Assembly: GCA_027062325.1 (NCBI GenBank) | Contig: JAMOTN010000077.1 | Span: forward strand, 1-15,429 | Source of the DNA: a bacterium | GTDB taxonomy: Bacteria; JAMOTN01 | DNA length: 15,429 nt | Direction of reading: 5' to 3' | Shown: one piece after another, positions 6,502 to 14,867 of the stretch | How positions within the stretch are numbered: position 1 is the stretch's first letter | Layout: each line of letters starts with the position of its first letter | Made by a program: the position numbers and the translations under genes | The notes under the pieces: generated by a model | Databases searched by the model: none | Told to the model about the DNA's origin: nothing | The model's input: the letters and a program-made list of their open reading frames with translations, nothing else

Positions 6502-6528
6502 GCGGGCTTTGCAGAAAGCAAAGCCCGC
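6502..6528 (-). terminator. Rho-independent terminator of the minus-strand flagellar block
   Basis: A perfect 11-bp stem GCGGGCTTTGC / GCAAAGCCCGC encloses a five-base loop. Read on the minus strand it is followed at once by TTTTT, the classic form of an intrinsic terminator, and it lies about 50 bases past the stop of the 811-aa gene. On the plus strand the U tract is missing, though the stem could still slow polymerase leaving the binding-protein gene. Confidence 0.88.
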
Positions 6529-6576: not shown

Positions 6577-9012
6577 CTATTGATTTGCTGCCTCATTCTG
6601 ATCTGGCTGCTGATCATCCGAATTCGTAACATTTTCAAGATTTTCCAAACTCTCTTTGAACGTCTCTCTAATATTAGTTTTCACATTTGGTTCATAAACT
6701 TCCTTCTTCACACTCTTTTTCATCACCTTTTTACTGACACTATCCTGCAAATACTGTTTTATAAAGTTTGCATAAGCCTCAGTTACTAGCCGCGGATCAT
6801 CAACAGCAGCCTCCCCTGCTGCTACCTTTTTAGTAACTTCTCCTACTCCCTTCTTGAACTTCCTGAGATCTCCCAATTTTGTATTAGATGCAACTAACCC
6901 TCCTATAAGTTCAGCTTTGTACATTTCCACCCTTGATCCATACAAACTCAACGCCTGCTGCTGAGCCTCATTGTAAAATCTAACTGATAACTCCTCAGGC
7001 AACGGTTGATTAGGATGCTCTAACCTCCATTTTTTAACTTTGGCATCATAAACTTTCTGGATGTAAACACTTGGACGAGTATCTGCAACAACTGACAGTG
7101 ACTTTATATACAAATCATTCTCCTTCTCCAAAAGATCAGCATATCTCGTTCTTAACTGATCCAATCTTTTCTTATCTTCAGGAGTAAGCTTCCTCTTATT
7201 AGTCAAATTCATTATCTCCTGGGCAACTTTCTGCCTTTCAGACCTTACCTCTTTATATTCTTTACGATATTTGCCCTTATTTGGGTAATCTTCTTCAATT
7301 TGCTTTACTTTATTTAAAGCACTCTCAGCACTATTCTTAAGATCAGTCGTGTACTTCTCTTCTGCCATTTTATATAATTCCATCGGATTAATACCAGCAG
7401 GAACCTCTCCATTTTTCTTCATGTATTCAGCATAGATTTTAACAGCCTCATCCTTTGTCACATAATCAACCATCGTTTTCTTCTCTGCAAACTCAACTTC
7501 CAATTTTGCCTTTCTCTCATACTCCTTTATCTTTGCATGCAAATCTGGGTCAAATTTTGAAGAAGCCTTGATCGCCTTAACTTCCCTCTCAACCATAAGC
7601 GAGTATGCTTTGGGATTTTCCTCTATATACTTCTGCAATTGCTCATCATCAAAGTTATACTTCTTCTTTAATTTTTCTTTAACCCTGTCTTCCGCATCAG
7701 ACTTTATATAAGAATCAACCTTAGAACTGATTTTCTTCCTCCTATCAACAACATGATAAACTGCCGCATCCATCATTATATTGTAAGTCTGATCTGCAAA
7801 TCTATCAGCCACAGCATGTGTAATCTCATTTTTCAAATTTTTCTTTCTACTCTCAACAATTTTCGCCATTTCTAAATAATACTTTTTCTCAGCTTCTGTC
7901 TTCGCATTCTTAGCTTTATCATACCAATATTGTGCTTCTCTATCCTTCAAAGCATTCCATAAAACAGTCTTGGTCGTTCCCTCCACTACTCCCACAGCCG
8001 GAGCAACTCCTAACATTGCAATATCAGTAGCCTTATGAGCATTACCAAAAAGTTTCGTAGAAGTTTTGGCCAAAGCTGTCGTAATTTTTCCTCCCTTACT
8101 ACTCAATAACTTACTATCAACACCAGCTCTTACAGTAGTTCCTACTCCCGCTGAAAATATAGATCCCAAAAGATTGTTAAAAGTATCCTCTTTGAAAGTT
8201 TGAAGTGAATAGTACTCTTTGTTCTTGAGACTTTCCAACTCCTTTTCTAATTCTATCAAACGCTGAAGTTCTTCTTCTGTTATAGTTCCACTGTCCAACT
8301 TCCTCTTTAATTGATCTCTCTCCATTTCAAGATTTCTTATCTTTTTATCTAGGTGAAGAACCTTGTCGTTGTATATATTTTTAACTGCTCCTCCTGCAAG
8401 AGAGGCTACTTCTTTATTAACAAAGTTAACTACTGTAAGCTTAGCAAACGTTTTTAACAACACACCTTTTGCTACTTCTCCGCCCACCTTACCTATAAGA
8501 GCTCCACCTACTGCTCCCAATGGAGCTGTAATAGCACTTACCGTCGAACTTACAAGAACATCTCTCATTATCAAAGCATCACTCTTTTTCTTATCTCTAA
8601 ATTGATTCATCCTCTTCTCCTTAAGATACGTAAGCAATCCTGAAACAACTGCTCCTATCACCATTGAGATAACAATAGCTCCTATAACACCTGGAGCAAA
8701 AACTGTAAGCACTACAACAACAGCTAACGTAGGAATTATCATTTCAGCTGCCATCCAAGCAATTTTTTCCCACCAGGACATTTTTTTCTTTTCTTTAACA
8801 CTTTTTTTATCTACTTTTTGAGCACCTGTTCCTGCCTCTTTTCCTTGCTGCAATTTTAACTTAAAGCCACCACCTGCATCGATAGTTTGTGATCCAGTTG
8901 ATGCCACTGTACTCCCCTGCGCATAAACATAACCCTCTAAAGCCCAGAAAAAAGATGGTGCTGTTAAAAACACCGTTACTATTAGTATCCGAGCCATAAT
9001 GTGTTTCAACAT
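6577..9012 (-). CDS. Large exported coiled-coil protein of unknown function (811 aa)
   Basis: I do not recognise a family. The visible order is: a Sec signal peptide with a likely cut after Val-Tyr-Ala (residues 29-31); a Gly/Gln/Lys-rich linker (32-80); two hydrophobic segments forming a probable membrane hairpin (about 88-130); a small-residue, glycine-zipper-like stretch with GAVGGALIGKVGG (166-178); a highly charged coiled coil (218-268); a second Gly/Ala-rich hydrophobic stretch (281-345); and about 450 residues of charged helix ending in an Asn/Gln/Asp-rich tail. The whole protein has no cysteine. The start ATG has AAGGGGG eight bases upstream. It is the last gene of the flagellar block, 114 bases after the MotE-like gene and before a strong terminator. 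It is not FliK or another standard flagellar protein by sequence. A periplasmic or surface scaffold, or a membrane-inserting secreted protein, would fit. The function is unknown. Confidence 0.88.
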   Translation of the reverse strand: MLKHIMARILIVTVFLTAPSFFWALEGYVYAQGSTVASTGSQTIDAGGGFKLKLQQGKEAGTGAQKVDKKSVKEKKKMSWWEKIAWMAAEMIIPTLAVVVVLTVFAPGVIGAIVISMVIGAVVSGLLTYLKEKRMNQFRDKKKSDALIMRDVLVSSTVSAITAPLGAVGGALIGKVGGEVAKGVLLKTFAKLTVVNFVNKEVASLAGGAVKNIYNDKVLHLDKKIRNLEMERDQLKRKLDSGTITEEELQRLIELEKELESLKNKEYYSLQTFKEDTFNNLLGSIFSAGVGTTVRAGVDSKLLSSKGGKITTALAKTSTKLFGNAHKATDIAMLGVAPAVGVVEGTTKTVLWNALKDREAQYWYDKAKNAKTEAEKKYYLEMAKIVESRKKNLKNEITHAVADRFADQTYNIMMDAAVYHVVDRRKKISSKVDSYIKSDAEDRVKEKLKKKYNFDDEQLQKYIEENPKAYSLMVEREVKAIKASSKFDPDLHAKIKEYERKAKLEVEFAEKKTMVDYVTKDEAVKIYAEYMKKNGEVPAGINPMELYKMAEEKYTTDLKNSAESALNKVKQIEEDYPNKGKYRKEYKEVRSERQKVAQEIMNLTNKRKLTPEDKKRLDQLRTRYADLLEKENDLYIKSLSVVADTRPSVYIQKVYDAKVKKWRLEHPNQPLPEELSVRFYNEAQQQALSLYGSRVEMYKAELIGGLVASNTKLGDLRKFKKGVGEVTKKVAAGEAAVDDPRLVTEAYANFIKQYLQDSVSKKVMKKSVKKEVYEPNVKTNIRETFKESLENLENVTNSDDQQPDQNEAANQ

Positions 9013-9087
9013 ACTACATACCCCCTTAAATCAAACATGGATCCTACATCCTAAGCTCCCATTTTTATTTTAATTCGTAAGGGAGTA

Positions 9088-9096
9088 ATTGTACCA
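9088..9096 (-). promoter_or_regulatory. Extended -10 promoter candidate for the 811-aa protein gene
   Basis: Read on the minus strand, TG, one base, then TACAAT lies about 75 bases upstream of the 811-aa gene's start. A weak -35 (TTTTAT) lies 17 bases further up. It suggests the last gene of the flagellar block can be transcribed on its own as well as by read-through. Confidence 0.5.
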
Positions 9097-9126
9097 AAAA
9101 TCAGTTTTTTATAAAACATTCCAACT

Positions 9127-9714
9127 CTATTTAAACAAACGCACAGCATAAGTAGCTGGTAAACTGTTCAAAATTTGAGCAACAGTTTTAGAATCAACTA
9201 ACATTAAAAGCTTCTTACTCTTCACAGGATTCAATCTGACTAAAATATCTGCTGCTTTTGGGGGATCAACTTTCTTTAACGATAAAGCCAACTTTTGAAA
9301 AGCTTCTTTTTCATTAATTAACTCATTCTGCAAAGCCTTAAGATTTTTCTCCAATTCATTCAGCTTTCTTTCCCTATCTGCAAGCGCTTGTTCTCTCTCC
9401 CTAAGCTTACTCTCCTTTTCTTTTAAAAATTCTCTCTCCTTAATAAGCTTATTCTCAAATTCTCTAAGCTTTTTCAGCTTTTCTTTATACAATTTTTCCT
9501 GACGCTTTACCAACTCTCTGAACTTCTCCTCAGGAGTTTTGTGCAAGAGCTCCGACATCTCTACATAATCCTGCACAACCTTGTAACGTCTCAAAATAGC
9601 AGGTATATACGGCTTTATATTTATAATCCCTATGTAATCAAACAGAACAAGATCTGCAATACCAACAATTAGTAAAATGCTGAAAAGGAAAATTATAACC
9701 GCAAAATTTTTCAT
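9127..9714 (-). CDS. MotE-like flagellar protein with MgtE-N-like C-terminal domain
   Basis: A 195-residue protein with one N-terminal membrane segment (about 4-28), a long charged coiled coil (about 63-140) rich in Lys, Glu, Arg and Leu, and a C-terminal helical domain (141-190) beginning Lys-Val-Asp-Pro-Pro-Lys-Ala-Ala-Asp-Ile-Leu. This is the arrangement of MotE/YlxF-type proteins, which have the MgtE_N-like fold and are commonly encoded after fliJ. MotE is known as a periplasmic chaperone of MotC in alpha-proteobacteria; the role in other lineages is less settled, so here I infer only a link to the flagellar motor or stator. It follows fliJ by 27 bases, with GGAGGT ten bases before its ATG. 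A generic coiled-coil membrane protein is the alternative, but context and the C-terminal motif argue for this call. Confidence 0.8.
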   Translation of the reverse strand: MKNFAVIIFLFSILLIVGIADLVLFDYIGIINIKPYIPAILRRYKVVQDYVEMSELLHKTPEEKFRELVKRQEKLYKEKLKKLREFENKLIKEREFLKEKESKLREREQALADRERKLNELEKNLKALQNELINEKEAFQKLALSLKKVDPPKAADILVRLNPVKSKKLLMLVDSKTVAQILNSLPATYAVRLFK

Positions 9715-9741: not shown

Positions 9742-10197
9742 TTAATAATCACCTTTTCGATAATTAAATTGGACAGAGGCAACCTCATCCATTCTACTTG
9801 CTTCTCTTTTTTTATACTTCTCCATTAACCTTGCTTTTTGCCTCTCCTCAACTTTTTCAACAGTCTTCAAATCCTGCCATGCCTTCATATATTCCTTTTT
9901 AACTCTCTCTTCTTCTTCTCGTGCTCTAGCCAAAAGCATTTTAATATCTACTATCTCCTTTTTTAAATTTTGACGAGCTCGGTTGTAGAGGAAAACTCTC
10001 CGTGTATCTGGCTTTCCTTTCATGACCTCATTCATCCTTATCTCCAAATCACGTAATCGCTTTTGAGCATCCTCTAATCTATCCTCAAGCTCTTTAATGT
10101 AAGCATTTATCTTTGAAAGTTCCGCTTTCTTCAACTCCAATTCAAACTCTCTATACCTTTTCACGCTACTTATCCTCAACTTAGGAAACTTGGGCAC
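9742..10197 (-). CDS. fliJ: Flagellar export chaperone FliJ
   Basis: FliJ is a small coiled-coil protein that inserts into the FliI hexamer and couples the ATPase to the export gate, in the cytoplasm below the flagellar base. The 151 residues are almost all charged helix in two antiparallel stretches, with the C-terminal pattern typical of FliJ (a Lys-Tyr-Lys-Lys-Arg-Glu-Ala run, then MDEVAS near residue 136). Length matches the family's 140-150. It follows fliI by 19 bases. The start is GTG at 10197 with GGAGG at 10210-10206, eight bases upstream. Sequence alone would only say coiled coil; the position straight after fliI makes the assignment strong. Confidence 0.88.
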   Translation of the reverse strand: MPKFPKLRISSVKRYREFELELKKAELSKINAYIKELEDRLEDAQKRLRDLEIRMNEVMKGKPDTRRVFLYNRARQNLKKEIVDIKMLLARAREEEERVKKEYMKAWQDLKTVEKVEERQKARLMEKYKKREASRMDEVASVQFNYRKGDY

Positions 10198-10216
10198 ACC
10201 CTACCCCTCCTAATAC

Positions 10217-11527
10217 CTAACTAACAACTGTCCCCAACATCTCAACAACCTCATCAAAACTGTAAGCCTCATCAAGGCGCTGCCTTATAAAATTCCACAT
10301 ATCAGTAATTTTACTAACAGCCAAATCCAACTCTAGGTTTGCTCCCTTTCTATACGCCCCAACATTTATCAAATCCTCTGATTGCATATACGTAGCAAGA
10401 AGCCGCTTGAACTTATGAGCAAGTTCAAGATGTTCCTTGCTAACTATAGCCGGCATCAAACGACTAACACTTTCTAATACATCTATAGCAGGATAAATTC
10501 CTCTGGAGGCAAGATCCCTTTTTAAAACTATGTGTCCATCAAGTATTCCACGAACCGTATCCGAGATCGGCTCGTCAAAATCTTCTCCCTCAACTAGTAC
10601 CGTATAAAATGCAGTAATAGTCCCTTTATTCGAAGTCCCTGCACGCTCCAAAAGTTTAGGAAGAAGTTTAAAAACGCTTGGAGGATAACCTCTAAGAGTT
10701 GGTGGTTCTCCCGCATCAAGACCAATCTCACGCTGAGCCATGGCAAAACGCGTAACCGAATCCATAACAAGCAGCACATCCTTTCCTAAATCTCTGAAAA
10801 ACTCAGCAATTGCCGTTGCAACGTAAGCACTTTTTACCTTCATCATAGCTGGTTTATCTCCAGTAGCCACAACCACCACACTTCGTGCCAAGCCCTCAGG
10901 ACCAAGTATGTTATCAATAAACTCACGCACCTCTCTTCCACGCTCGCCAATCAAACAAACCACGTTAACATCAGCCGTTGAATAGCGAACCATCATACCA
11001 AGCAGTGTACTCTTTCCAACCCCGGATCCTGCAAAAATTCCAACGCGCTGCCCCTTTCCTATGGTTAGCAATCCATCTATCGCCTTGATTCCAACACTTA
11101 ACACATCTTCAATCTTGGGTTTTTTTAATGGATCCGGAGGCTCTGCATATATATTGTAATAATCCTCTACAGGATAATCGTGCCCCTCAATTAACCTTCC
11201 CAAACCATCCACAACACACCCCAACATCTTTTTTCCAACGGGCACAACAAAATTACGCCCTGTTGAAACTACACGACTATTCACAGCAATACCAGAAGCA
11301 TCTTCAATTGGAATCAAAATAACTCGATTATCCCTGAACCCAACAACCTCCGCCCATATAACCTTTCCATCTGGAGATATAACTTGACATAGGTCTCCCA
11401 ATCGGCAATCTGGACCTTCAGATCTTATACTCGATCCCAAAACCTCCTTCACTTTACCACAGTAAGCATAAAGTTTGGAACTATCAATGGATTCAATCAC
11501 AGCCTTCACTCTATTCAAAAGAGTCAT
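10217..11527 (-). CDS. fliI: Flagellum-specific ATPase FliI
   Basis: Cytoplasmic hexameric ATPase of the flagellar type III export apparatus, related to F1-ATPase beta subunits. It strips chaperones from and feeds export substrates to the gate. Visible motifs are Walker A GSGVGKST (167-174), GERGRE with the catalytic Glu (194-199), Walker B VLLVMD (251-256), YPPSVF (281-286), and the C-terminal helical region that binds substrates. The length, 436 aa, is typical. The ATG at 11527 lies inside the end of fliH, giving a 17-base overlap, with GAGGGAG at 11541-11535 as its ribosome site, so translation is very likely coupled. No key residue is missing. Confidence 0.97.
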   Translation of the reverse strand: MTLLNRVKAVIESIDSSKLYAYCGKVKEVLGSSIRSEGPDCRLGDLCQVISPDGKVIWAEVVGFRDNRVILIPIEDASGIAVNSRVVSTGRNFVVPVGKKMLGCVVDGLGRLIEGHDYPVEDYYNIYAEPPDPLKKPKIEDVLSVGIKAIDGLLTIGKGQRVGIFAGSGVGKSTLLGMMVRYSTADVNVVCLIGERGREVREFIDNILGPEGLARSVVVVATGDKPAMMKVKSAYVATAIAEFFRDLGKDVLLVMDSVTRFAMAQREIGLDAGEPPTLRGYPPSVFKLLPKLLERAGTSNKGTITAFYTVLVEGEDFDEPISDTVRGILDGHIVLKRDLASRGIYPAIDVLESVSRLMPAIVSKEHLELAHKFKRLLATYMQSEDLINVGAYRKGANLELDLAVSKITDMWNFIRQRLDEAYSFDEVVEMLGTVVS

Positions 11528-12272
11528 CTTTTCTCTCCCTCAACTTCTGCTCTATTAATGCAAATAACTTCTCTGCCCGTAGTTTGAAACTTGCATCAAC
11601 AAATCCATACTGTGTCTCAACAACTACTCCAGGTGGCATCCTCTGAACCTTAACTTCTAATGAATCCACACCCTTCAAAAGCTCTGTTGCAACTTTTAAA
11701 ACCTCACTTTTCTCCAATTCATCGTTCGAAATAATTATCCTAACCCACGGCTGATCAATAAGGTTTTCAAAATTCTCTTCAAGCACTTTCTGTACAGTGT
11801 CTAAATTTTCCGGAGTGTGAAGGCATATCACTTCTACTACCCGTTTTAAAATCTCAAACATCTCTCTCTCCATTCTAGCAACTTCTGCCCTCTGTTGATT
11901 CTTCAATTCCTCCATAAAGTACTGCACCTGATTTTTAACCTCTTCAAGCTCAACTCTAACCTCATCTAATCCCTGTCTTATCCCCTCTTCACGAGCCTGT
12001 TTCAGAACCTCTTCTCTTTTTTGCTGCAGCTGAGTTTCAAACTCTTGTCGTCTTTTTTCAAGCTCCTCCGCTAAGTTTTTTTCTGCCTGCTCTTTGTAAT
12101 TCGCAATTTCTGCCTCAAGCTGGGCTTTTTTCTTTTCCAAATCTGCAATCTGCCTTTCCAAAATTTTGAGTTTGTCTTCTAATGTATCTAATACCTTCTT
12201 TTTTTTGCTTTGTGCAGAGTAATCGACAACAACTTTTTTTTCCGTAAAACGCGGAGTCATGTGATGCAGCAT
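11511..12272 (-). CDS. fliH: Flagellar assembly protein FliH
   Basis: FliH binds FliI and anchors it to the export apparatus and the C ring; it acts as the peripheral-stalk-like partner of the ATPase. About 253 residues: a long charged N-terminal coiled coil (about 20-145, many Glu, Lys, Gln, Leu) and a C-terminal alpha/beta domain with a VRIIISNDELEK segment and a GVVVETQYGFVDAS motif typical of FliH/YscL/V-ATPase E-like proteins. The frame opens at a TTG at 12323, but AAGGAGG at 12284-12278 is five bases before the ATG at 12272, which is the likelier start; it removes 17 hydrophobic, atypical residues. It overlaps fliI by 17 bases and follows fliG. Confidence 0.93.
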   Translation of the reverse strand: MLHHMTPRFTEKKVVVDYSAQSKKKKVLDTLEDKLKILERQIADLEKKKAQLEAEIANYKEQAEKNLAEELEKRRQEFETQLQQKREEVLKQAREEGIRQGLDEVRVELEEVKNQVQYFMEELKNQQRAEVARMEREMFEILKRVVEVICLHTPENLDTVQKVLEENFENLIDQPWVRIIISNDELEKSEVLKVATELLKGVDSLEVKVQRMPPGVVVETQYGFVDASFKLRAEKLFALIEQKLRERKDDSFE

Positions 12273-12336
12273 TTTTCCCTCCTTTTGGCAAAACAGTTTC
12301 TTAGCAAAAGTAAACAAAAGCAACCTTTAAGAAGCT

Positions 12337-13356
12337 CTACACTATTAACTCTTCTCCCTTTCCACCGCGAGAAATAACAATCTCTCCTTCTTCTTCCAAA
12401 CGACGGATGATATTAATAATCCTCTGCTGTGCATCCTGAACATCTTTCAAACGCACAGGTCCCATGTATTCCATCTCCTCAAGCAATCTCTTCTGCATTC
12501 TCTTAGGCATGTTGTTCAAGAACTTCTCCTTAACACGCTCATCTTCAACTTTCTTAAGAGCAAGTGCAAGATCTTCAAGCTTTATTTCACGCAGCGCACG
12601 TTGTAAGCCACGATCGTCCACGTAGATGATATCTTCGAAGACAAACATGCGCTTTCTTATCTCCTGTGCTACTTCTGGATCCGTCTGTTCCAACTTCTCC
12701 ATTATCAATTTTTCCACACTTCTATCAACGTTGTTTAGAAGCTGAGCAGCAGCATCAAAGCCACCAACCATGGTGTAGTCAGCATTTATAACCTCCGACA
12801 ATTTCTCCTGTAACACCTCCTCAATTTCCTTAAGAATTTCCGGATTAGTTCTATCCATAACTGCAAGACGCTTAACAACCTCAACTTGCTTAGCAGAATC
12901 AAGGGCTGCAAGAAGAGTTGCCGCCTTTTCAATTGGCAGGTACGCAAGAATTATGGCAATAACCTGGGGATTCTCATTCTGTATGAAGTTTATCAACTGA
13001 CTTGGATCAACAGCCTGAATGAACTTAAATGGTGTAGTAGGGACAGCGTTTGTAAGCTTCTCGACAATTTTCTTCGCAATCTCCGGACCGAATGCCTCTT
13101 CAAGTAGTTTCTGAGCATATTTTATACCACCAGAAGCAACATATTCCTTCGCTCTCAAAAGACTTTCAAACTCATCCAAGACAATTTTAGCTACACTCGA
13201 AGGAACCTGACGCATTTTAGCAATCTCCATCATTAATGCCTCAACTATCTGCTGATCCTCAATGTGCTTTATAATCTCAGAAGCAACTTTTTTTTCCAGC
13301 ATAATCAAAATCGCAGCAGCTTTTTGTCTTCCTGTAAGTTTTTTTTGCGCACCCAT
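12337..13356 (-). CDS. fliG: Flagellar motor switch protein FliG
   Basis: FliG forms the rotor ring that touches the stator and, with FliM and FliN, sets rotation direction. The 339 residues cover all three domains: N-terminal (about 5-95, binds FliF), middle with ENPQ at 128-131 (the family's EHPQ motif, binds FliM), and C-terminal with MFVFEDI (236-242) followed by the charged VDDRGLQRALREI helix that meets the stator. The C-terminal end looks strikingly like Thermotoga FliG as I recall it. The frame opens at a TTG (13371), but GGGGGG at 13369-13364 lies seven bases before the ATG at 13356, so that start is preferred. fliF, which normally precedes fliG, is absent here. Confidence 0.96.
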   Translation of the reverse strand: MGAQKKLTGRQKAAAILIMLEKKVASEIIKHIEDQQIVEALMMEIAKMRQVPSSVAKIVLDEFESLLRAKEYVASGGIKYAQKLLEEAFGPEIAKKIVEKLTNAVPTTPFKFIQAVDPSQLINFIQNENPQVIAIILAYLPIEKAATLLAALDSAKQVEVVKRLAVMDRTNPEILKEIEEVLQEKLSEVINADYTMVGGFDAAAQLLNNVDRSVEKLIMEKLEQTDPEVAQEIRKRMFVFEDIIYVDDRGLQRALREIKLEDLALALKKVEDERVKEKFLNNMPKRMQKRLLEEMEYMGPVRLKDVQDAQQRIINIIRRLEEEGEIVISRGGKGEELIV

Positions 13357-13392
13357 ACCTATACCCCCCAAAACTTAATTTAAATCCTATTC

Positions 13393-14061
13393 TCAAAAGC
13401 CACCAATGGCTTTCAAAGTGGAAAGATAGGCCTTTACATTCCCTACTTTTAAGTAATAATACGCCTTAAGCAGAAAGTAATCTCTCTCCGGAACAAAATC
13501 AAGGTATTTCTTTCCTTTGTCTAACTGTCCCAGCATAAAATAATACTTCACCAGCACAGAAGCAAGTTTAGGATAAACACTGGCATTTTCAGAAGCGAAT
13601 CCAACCAATTCAGCCATAACTTTTCTCCACTCAAACGGCAAACTTAGCTCATCTCCAATTTCTGATAACGTCTCAAGTAATTTCGTTGACGCTACACACC
13701 TCACTAATAAACTCTTACCCGTATAAAACAAATCCCGCCAAATAGCAATGGCTTTTATGATATACGTTTTTTCCTTCGTTTTGGAAAACATCAGCCAAGC
13801 TCTTTCTGCTTCAATGAGTCTTCTCTGATCCTCATCCAATTTGGAAACAATATCATTCGGAATAGTTTCAAATTTCCTAAAATTCTCACCAGTGTATGCT
13901 CCCAATATCAACTTTGACTCATCTATCCCTAGAAGATAAACATCCTCTAGTTTCAATCTCCCAGTTAAAATTTTACTTTTTAAAGAAGTCAAATCACTTG
14001 CTTCAACAACTTTCACAAAGAAACACACTGCACAAATTAAAACAACAAACCTATTCACCAC
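13393..14061 (-). CDS. Exported helical (TPR-like) protein of unknown function
   Basis: A 222-residue protein with a signal peptide (hydrophobic core about 5-19, likely cut after Val-Glu-Ala at residue 21). The rest looks like an all-helical solenoid. The C-terminal third has the size and spacing of tetratricopeptide repeats, with Ala-Ser-Val-Leu-Val-Lys-Tyr-Tyr-Phe-Met-Leu-Gly-Gln-Leu-Asp and Tyr-Tyr-Leu-Lys-Val-Gly-Asn-Val, though no repeat is strict. TPR-type scaffolds bind other proteins, and this one would act outside the cytoplasmic membrane. It begins seven bases after the stop of the HhH+TPR gene; that stop follows directly on the GGGGAG site (14077-14072), so the two are translationally coupled. 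GTG 14061 is the start, with a second GTG next to it. I do not recognise a named family. Confidence 0.8.
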   Translation of the reverse strand: MVNRFVVLICAVCFFVKVVEASDLTSLKSKILTGRLKLEDVYLLGIDESKLILGAYTGENFRKFETIPNDIVSKLDEDQRRLIEAERAWLMFSKTKEKTYIIKAIAIWRDLFYTGKSLLVRCVASTKLLETLSEIGDELSLPFEWRKVMAELVGFASENASVYPKLASVLVKYYFMLGQLDKGKKYLDFVPERDYFLLKAYYYLKVGNVKAYLSTLKAIGGF

Positions 14062-14068
14062 TTAAAAC

Positions 14069-14824
14069 TCACTCCCCGGACACTTTCTTAATAATCTCTC
14101 TAGCCTTTTCTACAAAAGGACAATCAGGCCACATCTCTTTCATCTTTCCCCATACCAACCTCGCTCTTGCATAATCTCCGCTTTTCCAAAGGACTACACC
14201 CTTTCTCCACAACCCAAGAGCTTCCCATTTCCCGGTTAGTCGATCGTAAGAATCTGCTGCCTTTTCAAACATTCCTTTTTCTTCGTAATAAGCTCCTTTT
14301 AAATAGTAAAAAAGTTGCTTGTAATAGGCATTGCTACTCCTAGTAATTCTCTTCTGGGCAACCTTCAACCACTTCCCAGCTACATCAACATTTCCAAGTT
14401 TCAGAAAACCAAGAGCTTTTTTCACACAGTAGGAAAAGCTGTAGTTCTTCCTACTTACTCCTTTCAGTACACCCAAGCGCTTGCCAGTAGAAACTTTACC
14501 CTTACTCTTACTTCTATCTTTAAACTCATAATTTGAAGAAAACAAACTTACCATTTTTAAACTTCCCGAACCTTTTTCTCTCCTAACAGTTATCTTATTT
14601 TTTACACGCACAAAAAATTCACCATCTATTCCTGGAACTTTAAGAATATCGTAAATTGTACTGAAACCTCCAATCTTTTCACGATACTTTATGAGTTTGA
14701 CTGCCAACTTCCTTGAAAAACCTATCTGCACCAGTTCATCTACGCTTGCCACATTTATATCCACGACCTCAGCCATAATAAACTGAATAACTACAACAAC
14801 AAATAGTACAAAAGCTCTAACCAT
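14069..14824 (-). CDS. Exported protein with ComEA-like HhH domain and TPR repeats
   Basis: About 251 residues with a signal peptide (likely cut after Ile-Met-Ala, residue 18). A helix-hairpin-helix pair follows at about 21-80 and resembles ComEA: DINVASVDELVQI, a YREKIGGFSTIYDILKVPGI stretch, then a closing basic helix. The usual GIG turns read GFS and GID, so both hairpins are degenerate and DNA binding is uncertain. A Ser/Lys/Gly-rich linker (83-125) leads to about three TPR-like repeats (130-245). The frame opens at TTG 14845, but GGAG eight bases upstream of ATG 14824 decides the start. It is the first gene of the flagellar block. In competence systems such HhH domains bind DNA outside the membrane; here a protein-binding role in the envelope is equally possible. 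Function unknown. Confidence 0.85.
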   Translation of the reverse strand: MVRAFVLFVVVVIQFIMAEVVDINVASVDELVQIGFSRKLAVKLIKYREKIGGFSTIYDILKVPGIDGEFFVRVKNKITVRREKGSGSLKMVSLFSSNYEFKDRSKSKGKVSTGKRLGVLKGVSRKNYSFSYCVKKALGFLKLGNVDVAGKWLKVAQKRITRSSNAYYKQLFYYLKGAYYEEKGMFEKAADSYDRLTGKWEALGLWRKGVVLWKSGDYARARLVWGKMKEMWPDCPFVEKAREIIKKVSGE

Positions 14825-14867
14825 GCAACCCACTCCAAACTTCAAATTCTAACCTGCCCCTTATTTA

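Follow-up and report, generated by a model that had tools for sequence, protein, structure and literature searches.

The window analysed here is a whole contig-length stretch of 15,429 nt from a genome of 1.65 Mb that is 84% complete, and the sampled relatives of this genome have only the domain in common with it, none of them being close kin. On the minus strand, directly after a run of flagellar genes on the same strand (fliG, fliH, fliI, fliJ, and a gene for a MotE/FlbB-like protein), lies a gene for a protein of 811 aa, here called X, and downstream of it a sugar-type ABC transporter is encoded in the opposite orientation. The features of the locus are as follows.

6502..6528, minus strand: intrinsic terminator directly past the stop codon of X, with an 11-bp GC-rich stem (8 GC pairs) and a T-run
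6577..9012, minus strand: gene X (811 aa), encoding a signal peptide, a hydrophobic hairpin, a Gly/Ala segment, and a long helical part
6580..8364, minus strand: helical part of X, residues 217-811, less conserved (alignment, AlphaFold2)
8365..8793, minus strand: conserved module of X, residues 74-216, made up of the hairpin (82-132) and the Gly/Ala segment; the best-conserved part, with 31-42% identity to homologs
8920..9012, minus strand: signal peptide of X, residues 1-31, probable site VYA/QG (V29-Y30-A31), judged from hydropathy and visual reading of the sequence
9013..9126, minus strand: leader of X, with a promoter-like site and the Shine-Dalgarno sequence AAGGGGG (promoter scan and fold both near chance)
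9127..9714, minus strand: neighbouring gene for a MotE/FlbB-like (E-ring) protein of 195 aa (NF047368, E 7.9e-13, under its curated cut-off; MgtE_N sub-threshold)
9742..13371, minus strand: fliJ, fliI, fliH, and fliG (Pfam and NCBIfam; fliH from position and weak matches)
12337-13371, minus strand: fliG

Two proteins are encoded ahead of fliG (13393-14845). In one, of 258 aa, a hydrophobic N-terminus precedes an HHH_3 motif and TPR-like repeats; the other, of 222 aa, also has a hydrophobic N-terminus but matches nothing in Pfam. Elsewhere in the genome BamA and FlgH are encoded, and mlaEFD and lpx genes were read by eye; on these grounds the host is a diderm with an ordinary L-ring gene. A Flg_hook domain was not found in this 84%-complete genome, a negative that carries little weight given the incompleteness and the divergence of FliK.

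X begins with ATG, 8 nt behind AAGGGGG, and its codon usage is close to that of the adjoining flagellar genes (mean log RSCU 0.170 vs 0.09-0.17). Because the Shine-Dalgarno sequence is good, the codon usage native, and the terminator strong, the ORF is a genuine coding gene. The original prediction described it as closing the flagellar block, which holds for its position but not for its membership: 114 nt separate it from the MotE/FlbB gene, whereas gaps within the block are at most 27 nt. X is probably expressed as its own unit. The leader contains a promoter-like TTTATA-16-TACAAT with a TG ahead of the second hexamer (9115-9088, minus strand), and the promoter scan was near chance (42 sites against 36.1 expected), such sites being about as frequent as chance predicts. 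The Shine-Dalgarno sequence can base-pair with ACTCCCTTA upstream, in a leader whose fold is near chance (z -1.4). Across 9010-9086, upstream UACUCCCUUA is pairable with UAAGGGGGUA and would hide the Shine-Dalgarno sequence, the fold z again being only -1.4; if the promoter at 9115-9088 is real, the transcript would begin within or past the anti-Shine-Dalgarno segment, and only read-through RNA would be closed. A regulatory switch at this hairpin was considered and set aside as unsupported at that z value. Among the leaders of homologs, no common structure was evident.

The anatomy first described for X, a Sec-type signal followed by a hydrophobic hairpin, a Gly/Ala segment, and a helical remainder, was borne out by hydropathy and AlphaFold2. 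The hydrophobic span of the signal peptide covers residues ~4-29, and AxA-like sites were also seen by eye in several homologs. The hairpin is a hydrophobic block of ~50 residues (82-132), flanked on both sides by positive charge and followed by a weaker block at 147-176; the Gly/Ala segment spans ~147-210, and a helix-turn-helix coiled coil is predicted at ~215-270. The absence of cysteine was also correctly noted (0 in 811 aa; P about 0.009 at the cysteine frequency of the window), but it is not distinctive, since FliG, FliJ, FlbB, and MalF of the window likewise lack cysteine and homologs of X have 0-6.

As a single protein, X matches no named family in Pfam, NCBIfam, PHROGs, or PDB, and against these libraries the earlier statement that it resembles none of the hook-length or hook-cap proteins holds. 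A search of 59 genomes for relatives gave none that was reliable. Exact-peptide scans of genome and viral contigs detected no relative, nor did tblastn of X against plasmid records or of one homolog against phage records, and no PADLOC model for anti-phage defence matched. When 386 genomes were swept with X as sole query, two clear homologs were recovered in one genome of another phylum (G118; E 9e-33 and 9e-22); a match in G090 was dropped, being a multi-hairpin membrane protein aligned over the N-terminus only. With a profile built from the two G118 proteins, homologs were found in 21 of the 39 genomes of that phylum, several of which have more than one copy. The sampled genomes beyond that phylum and the genome of the window were negative with the whole-family profile and also with the N-terminal module, for which two matches at E 0.007-0.008 resemble chance hits; much the same outside genomes were sampled in each sweep, so that other phyla may also contain the family. 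Family members searched against Pfam and NCBIfam, and the family profile searched against PDB, gave scattered sub-threshold matches only.

Identity to X is 18-23% end to end among the 24 aligned members, rising to 31-42% in residues 74-216. The layout is shared by all of them: in each of the 24 rows, a hydrophobic segment at the N-terminus is accompanied by a hydrophobic block ~40-50 residues long, so the Sec-type export signal, judged by hydropathy and eye, is conserved. Ten positions are invariant across the alignment (E82, W86, P94, G120, A121, T128, R134, N136, A163, and P164). In five close pairs of homologs, dN/dS is 0.03-0.11, and in these pairs the family is under strong purifying selection. 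Homologs in 21 of 39 genomes, a common layout, and purifying selection together indicate that X is not an orphan and belongs to a genuine conserved family, which, as far as sequence comparison can tell, is undescribed and nameless in the libraries searched. In the tree, the copies of the other phylum fall into three supported groups, and the branch leading to X itself is very long, at 5.2 changes per site, and of unsure placement. Three homologs of one taxonomic family have LTAC or LTSC, a lipobox-like motif, near the end of the signal (L138:11340-11463 and counterparts in L139 and L140), which suggests a lipid-anchored variant. A 436-aa protein in G401, a genome of the same phylum as the homologs (L182:955-2265), has only a signal, the hairpin module, and a different tail, with a Pro-rich linker/tail region; judged by this architecture, the module is separable and occurs alone.

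The contexts of the homologs bear on the role of X. In two genomes of a single genus (g338), copies lie 65 nt upstream of bamA-skp-lpxD-lpxC, and at six loci of one genus X lies upstream of murD-ftsW-murG, with an LPG-synthase-like gene also in the gene order. The remaining copies have tonB/exbB or DUF445 neighbours or no recurrent neighbour, and hardly any neighbours are shared among the copies of the second paralog group. Since only about two of the gene orders seen are independent, the association with envelope genes is only suggestive.

The phylum of the homologs is also flagellated (FliG_C in 35 of 39 genomes), with the operon order flgB-flgC-fliE-fliF-fliG-fliH-fliI-fliJ-(linker)-MotE-like, most of these names being given by eye and position. 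Eight fliG loci read in this phylum contain no copy of X, and the neighbourhoods of X that were read contain no relatives of the FliG, FliH, FliI, FliJ, or MotE proteins of the window. Presence of X is independent of FliG (18/3 against 14/4; Fisher p 0.68, 39 genomes), and 14 flagellated genomes lack X, 7 of them at least 90% complete. Recurrent linkage to fliJ and MotE-like genes, for which the original prediction had proposed a neighbourhood search, is thus absent from the copies read, and homologs lie mostly away from flagellar genes. With neither linkage to flagellar genes nor an association with FliG, X is not supported as a motility component. Of the earlier description as an undescribed motility or envelope component, "undescribed" agrees with the library searches and "envelope" is plausible, but "motility" finds no backing in linkage or in co-occurrence.

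X might nevertheless be a flagellar accessory specific to its lineage, such as a partner in the periplasm for the E-ring MotE/FlbB protein encoded upstream; this lineage is represented in the sample by one genome, linkage having been judged in the other phylum only. X directly follows fliG-fliH-fliI-fliJ-MotE/FlbB on the same strand, the 114-nt gap showed no terminator, so that read-through is possible, and E-ring proteins do have periplasmic partners (PMC13023049). The known partners are rich in TPRs, however, whereas no TPR was found in X with Pfam, and multiple copies of X per genome are common; together with the flagellated genomes that lack it, this makes such a role unlikely.

Two observations on these gene orders stand apart. 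A gene for a stand-alone FliG C-terminal domain protein of ~148 aa, a second, truncated FliG, immediately follows fliG in the majority of genomes from one family of the other phylum (L148:8340-8786, L149:9638-10084, L150:9358-9798, L155:9125-9568). The order bamA-skp-lpxD-(~205-aa exported protein)-lpxC is common to both phyla (L206:3469-8866, in the genome of the window, and L124:11340-15923); the similarity between the ~205-aa proteins of the two phyla is unconvincing (E 0.019), and they may be positional equivalents only.

Structure prediction gave helices only. The AlphaFold2 single-sequence model has low confidence overall (pLDDT 50 for the whole protein), higher at residues 425-700, which are helical (pLDDT 79), and mostly under 40 in the module. 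Foldseek, suggested at the outset as a check, returned generic coiled coils for the whole model and for 425-700, with no match at E ≤0.001. Among the matches are the alpha-pore-formers AhlB, SmhB, ClyA, and XaxA, which, together with a signal peptide, a hydrophobic hairpin, coiled coils, and positive hairpin flanks that fit insertion from outside, could point to secretion of X and its insertion, by means of the hairpin, into another membrane, in the manner of a pore-former or a contact-dependent protein. Yet none of these matches is significant, and they stand among many unrelated helical proteins, with a VIA Z (8-9) within the range of generic helical matches. A housekeeping gene would fit the synteny at the level of the genus and the strong purifying selection seen in close pairs; among the genes adjoining X, reading by eye revealed no immunity-like or secretion partner, and the plasmid, phage, viral-contig, and PADLOC searches were all negative. 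We hold such a secreted role to be very unlikely.

The long helical arms that are predicted and the gene order with bamA-skp-lpxD-lpxC in two genomes would also fit a periplasmic chaperone or folding factor, tethered in the inner membrane and serving outer-membrane or wall assembly. This we consider rather unlikely: the gene order was seen in the one genus only, and the sequence searches brought up no Skp, SurA, or PpiD, none of which is among the fold matches listed.

X is probably a cell-envelope protein. The reading that we prefer, to which we give about an even chance, is that it belongs to a family of large, Sec-exported proteins of the envelope, undescribed to date, and has a hairpin in the inner membrane and a helical body in the periplasm that serves as a scaffold or assembly factor. 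The signal peptide would carry X across the inner membrane, with cleavage probably after A31, and the module (74-216) would insert its hairpin of two helices into the inner membrane from the periplasm; against this hairpin the Gly/Ala-rich helices of the module may pack or oligomerise. The remaining ~590 residues would make up a long body in the periplasm, mainly helical and in part coiled coil, acting as the envelope scaffold or assembly factor; that X adjoins the flagellar operon would be a chance outcome of gene order. The topology of the hairpin could differ from this model because its positive flanks, if periplasmic, agree poorly with the positive-inside rule. A broader idea, which we think improbable, is that the isolated phylum of the window and one other diderm phylum form a clade in which the family is an ancestral part of the envelope: a periplasmic scaffold, anchored by its hairpin, that has no counterpart in model bacteria and is needed for wall or outer-membrane assembly. 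An apparent orphan has thus become a defined conserved family with a separable membrane module, and a false flagellar lead has been removed; if X is an envelope scaffold, it would serve as a marker of the lineage and help to show how the envelope is built in poorly known diderm phyla.

Several known systems invite comparison. The model NF033872 (SidA-family T4SS effectors) matches the hairpin of X only, and weakly (E 0.0016, 17 bits against a 60-bit cut-off); 2 of 24 family members match, and the similarity looks like one of hydrophobic composition. FliK and FlgD follow the MotE-like gene ylxF in B. subtilis-type operons. Unlike these proteins, X matches neither Flg_hook nor any other Pfam or NCBIfam hook model and has a Sec-type signal in place of a type III export signal. 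MotE, FlbB, and FlgY (COG3334), which form the E-ring (PMC13023049), are, like X, exported or membrane-anchored helical proteins encoded in flagellar gene blocks, and the upstream neighbour of X is such a protein. They are about 180-260 aa long with an MgtE_N/FliG_M-like end, whereas X, at 811 aa, contains a hydrophobic block of 50 residues and lacks a domain of this kind; NF047368 and MgtE_N/FliG_M models do not match X, only its neighbour (9127-9714), and that weakly. The alpha-pore-forming toxins ClyA, AhlB, and XaxA/YaxB combine, as X does, a hydrophobic hairpin with long helices, but they share no sequence match and no significant fold match with X, which is more than twice their length and has conserved synteny.
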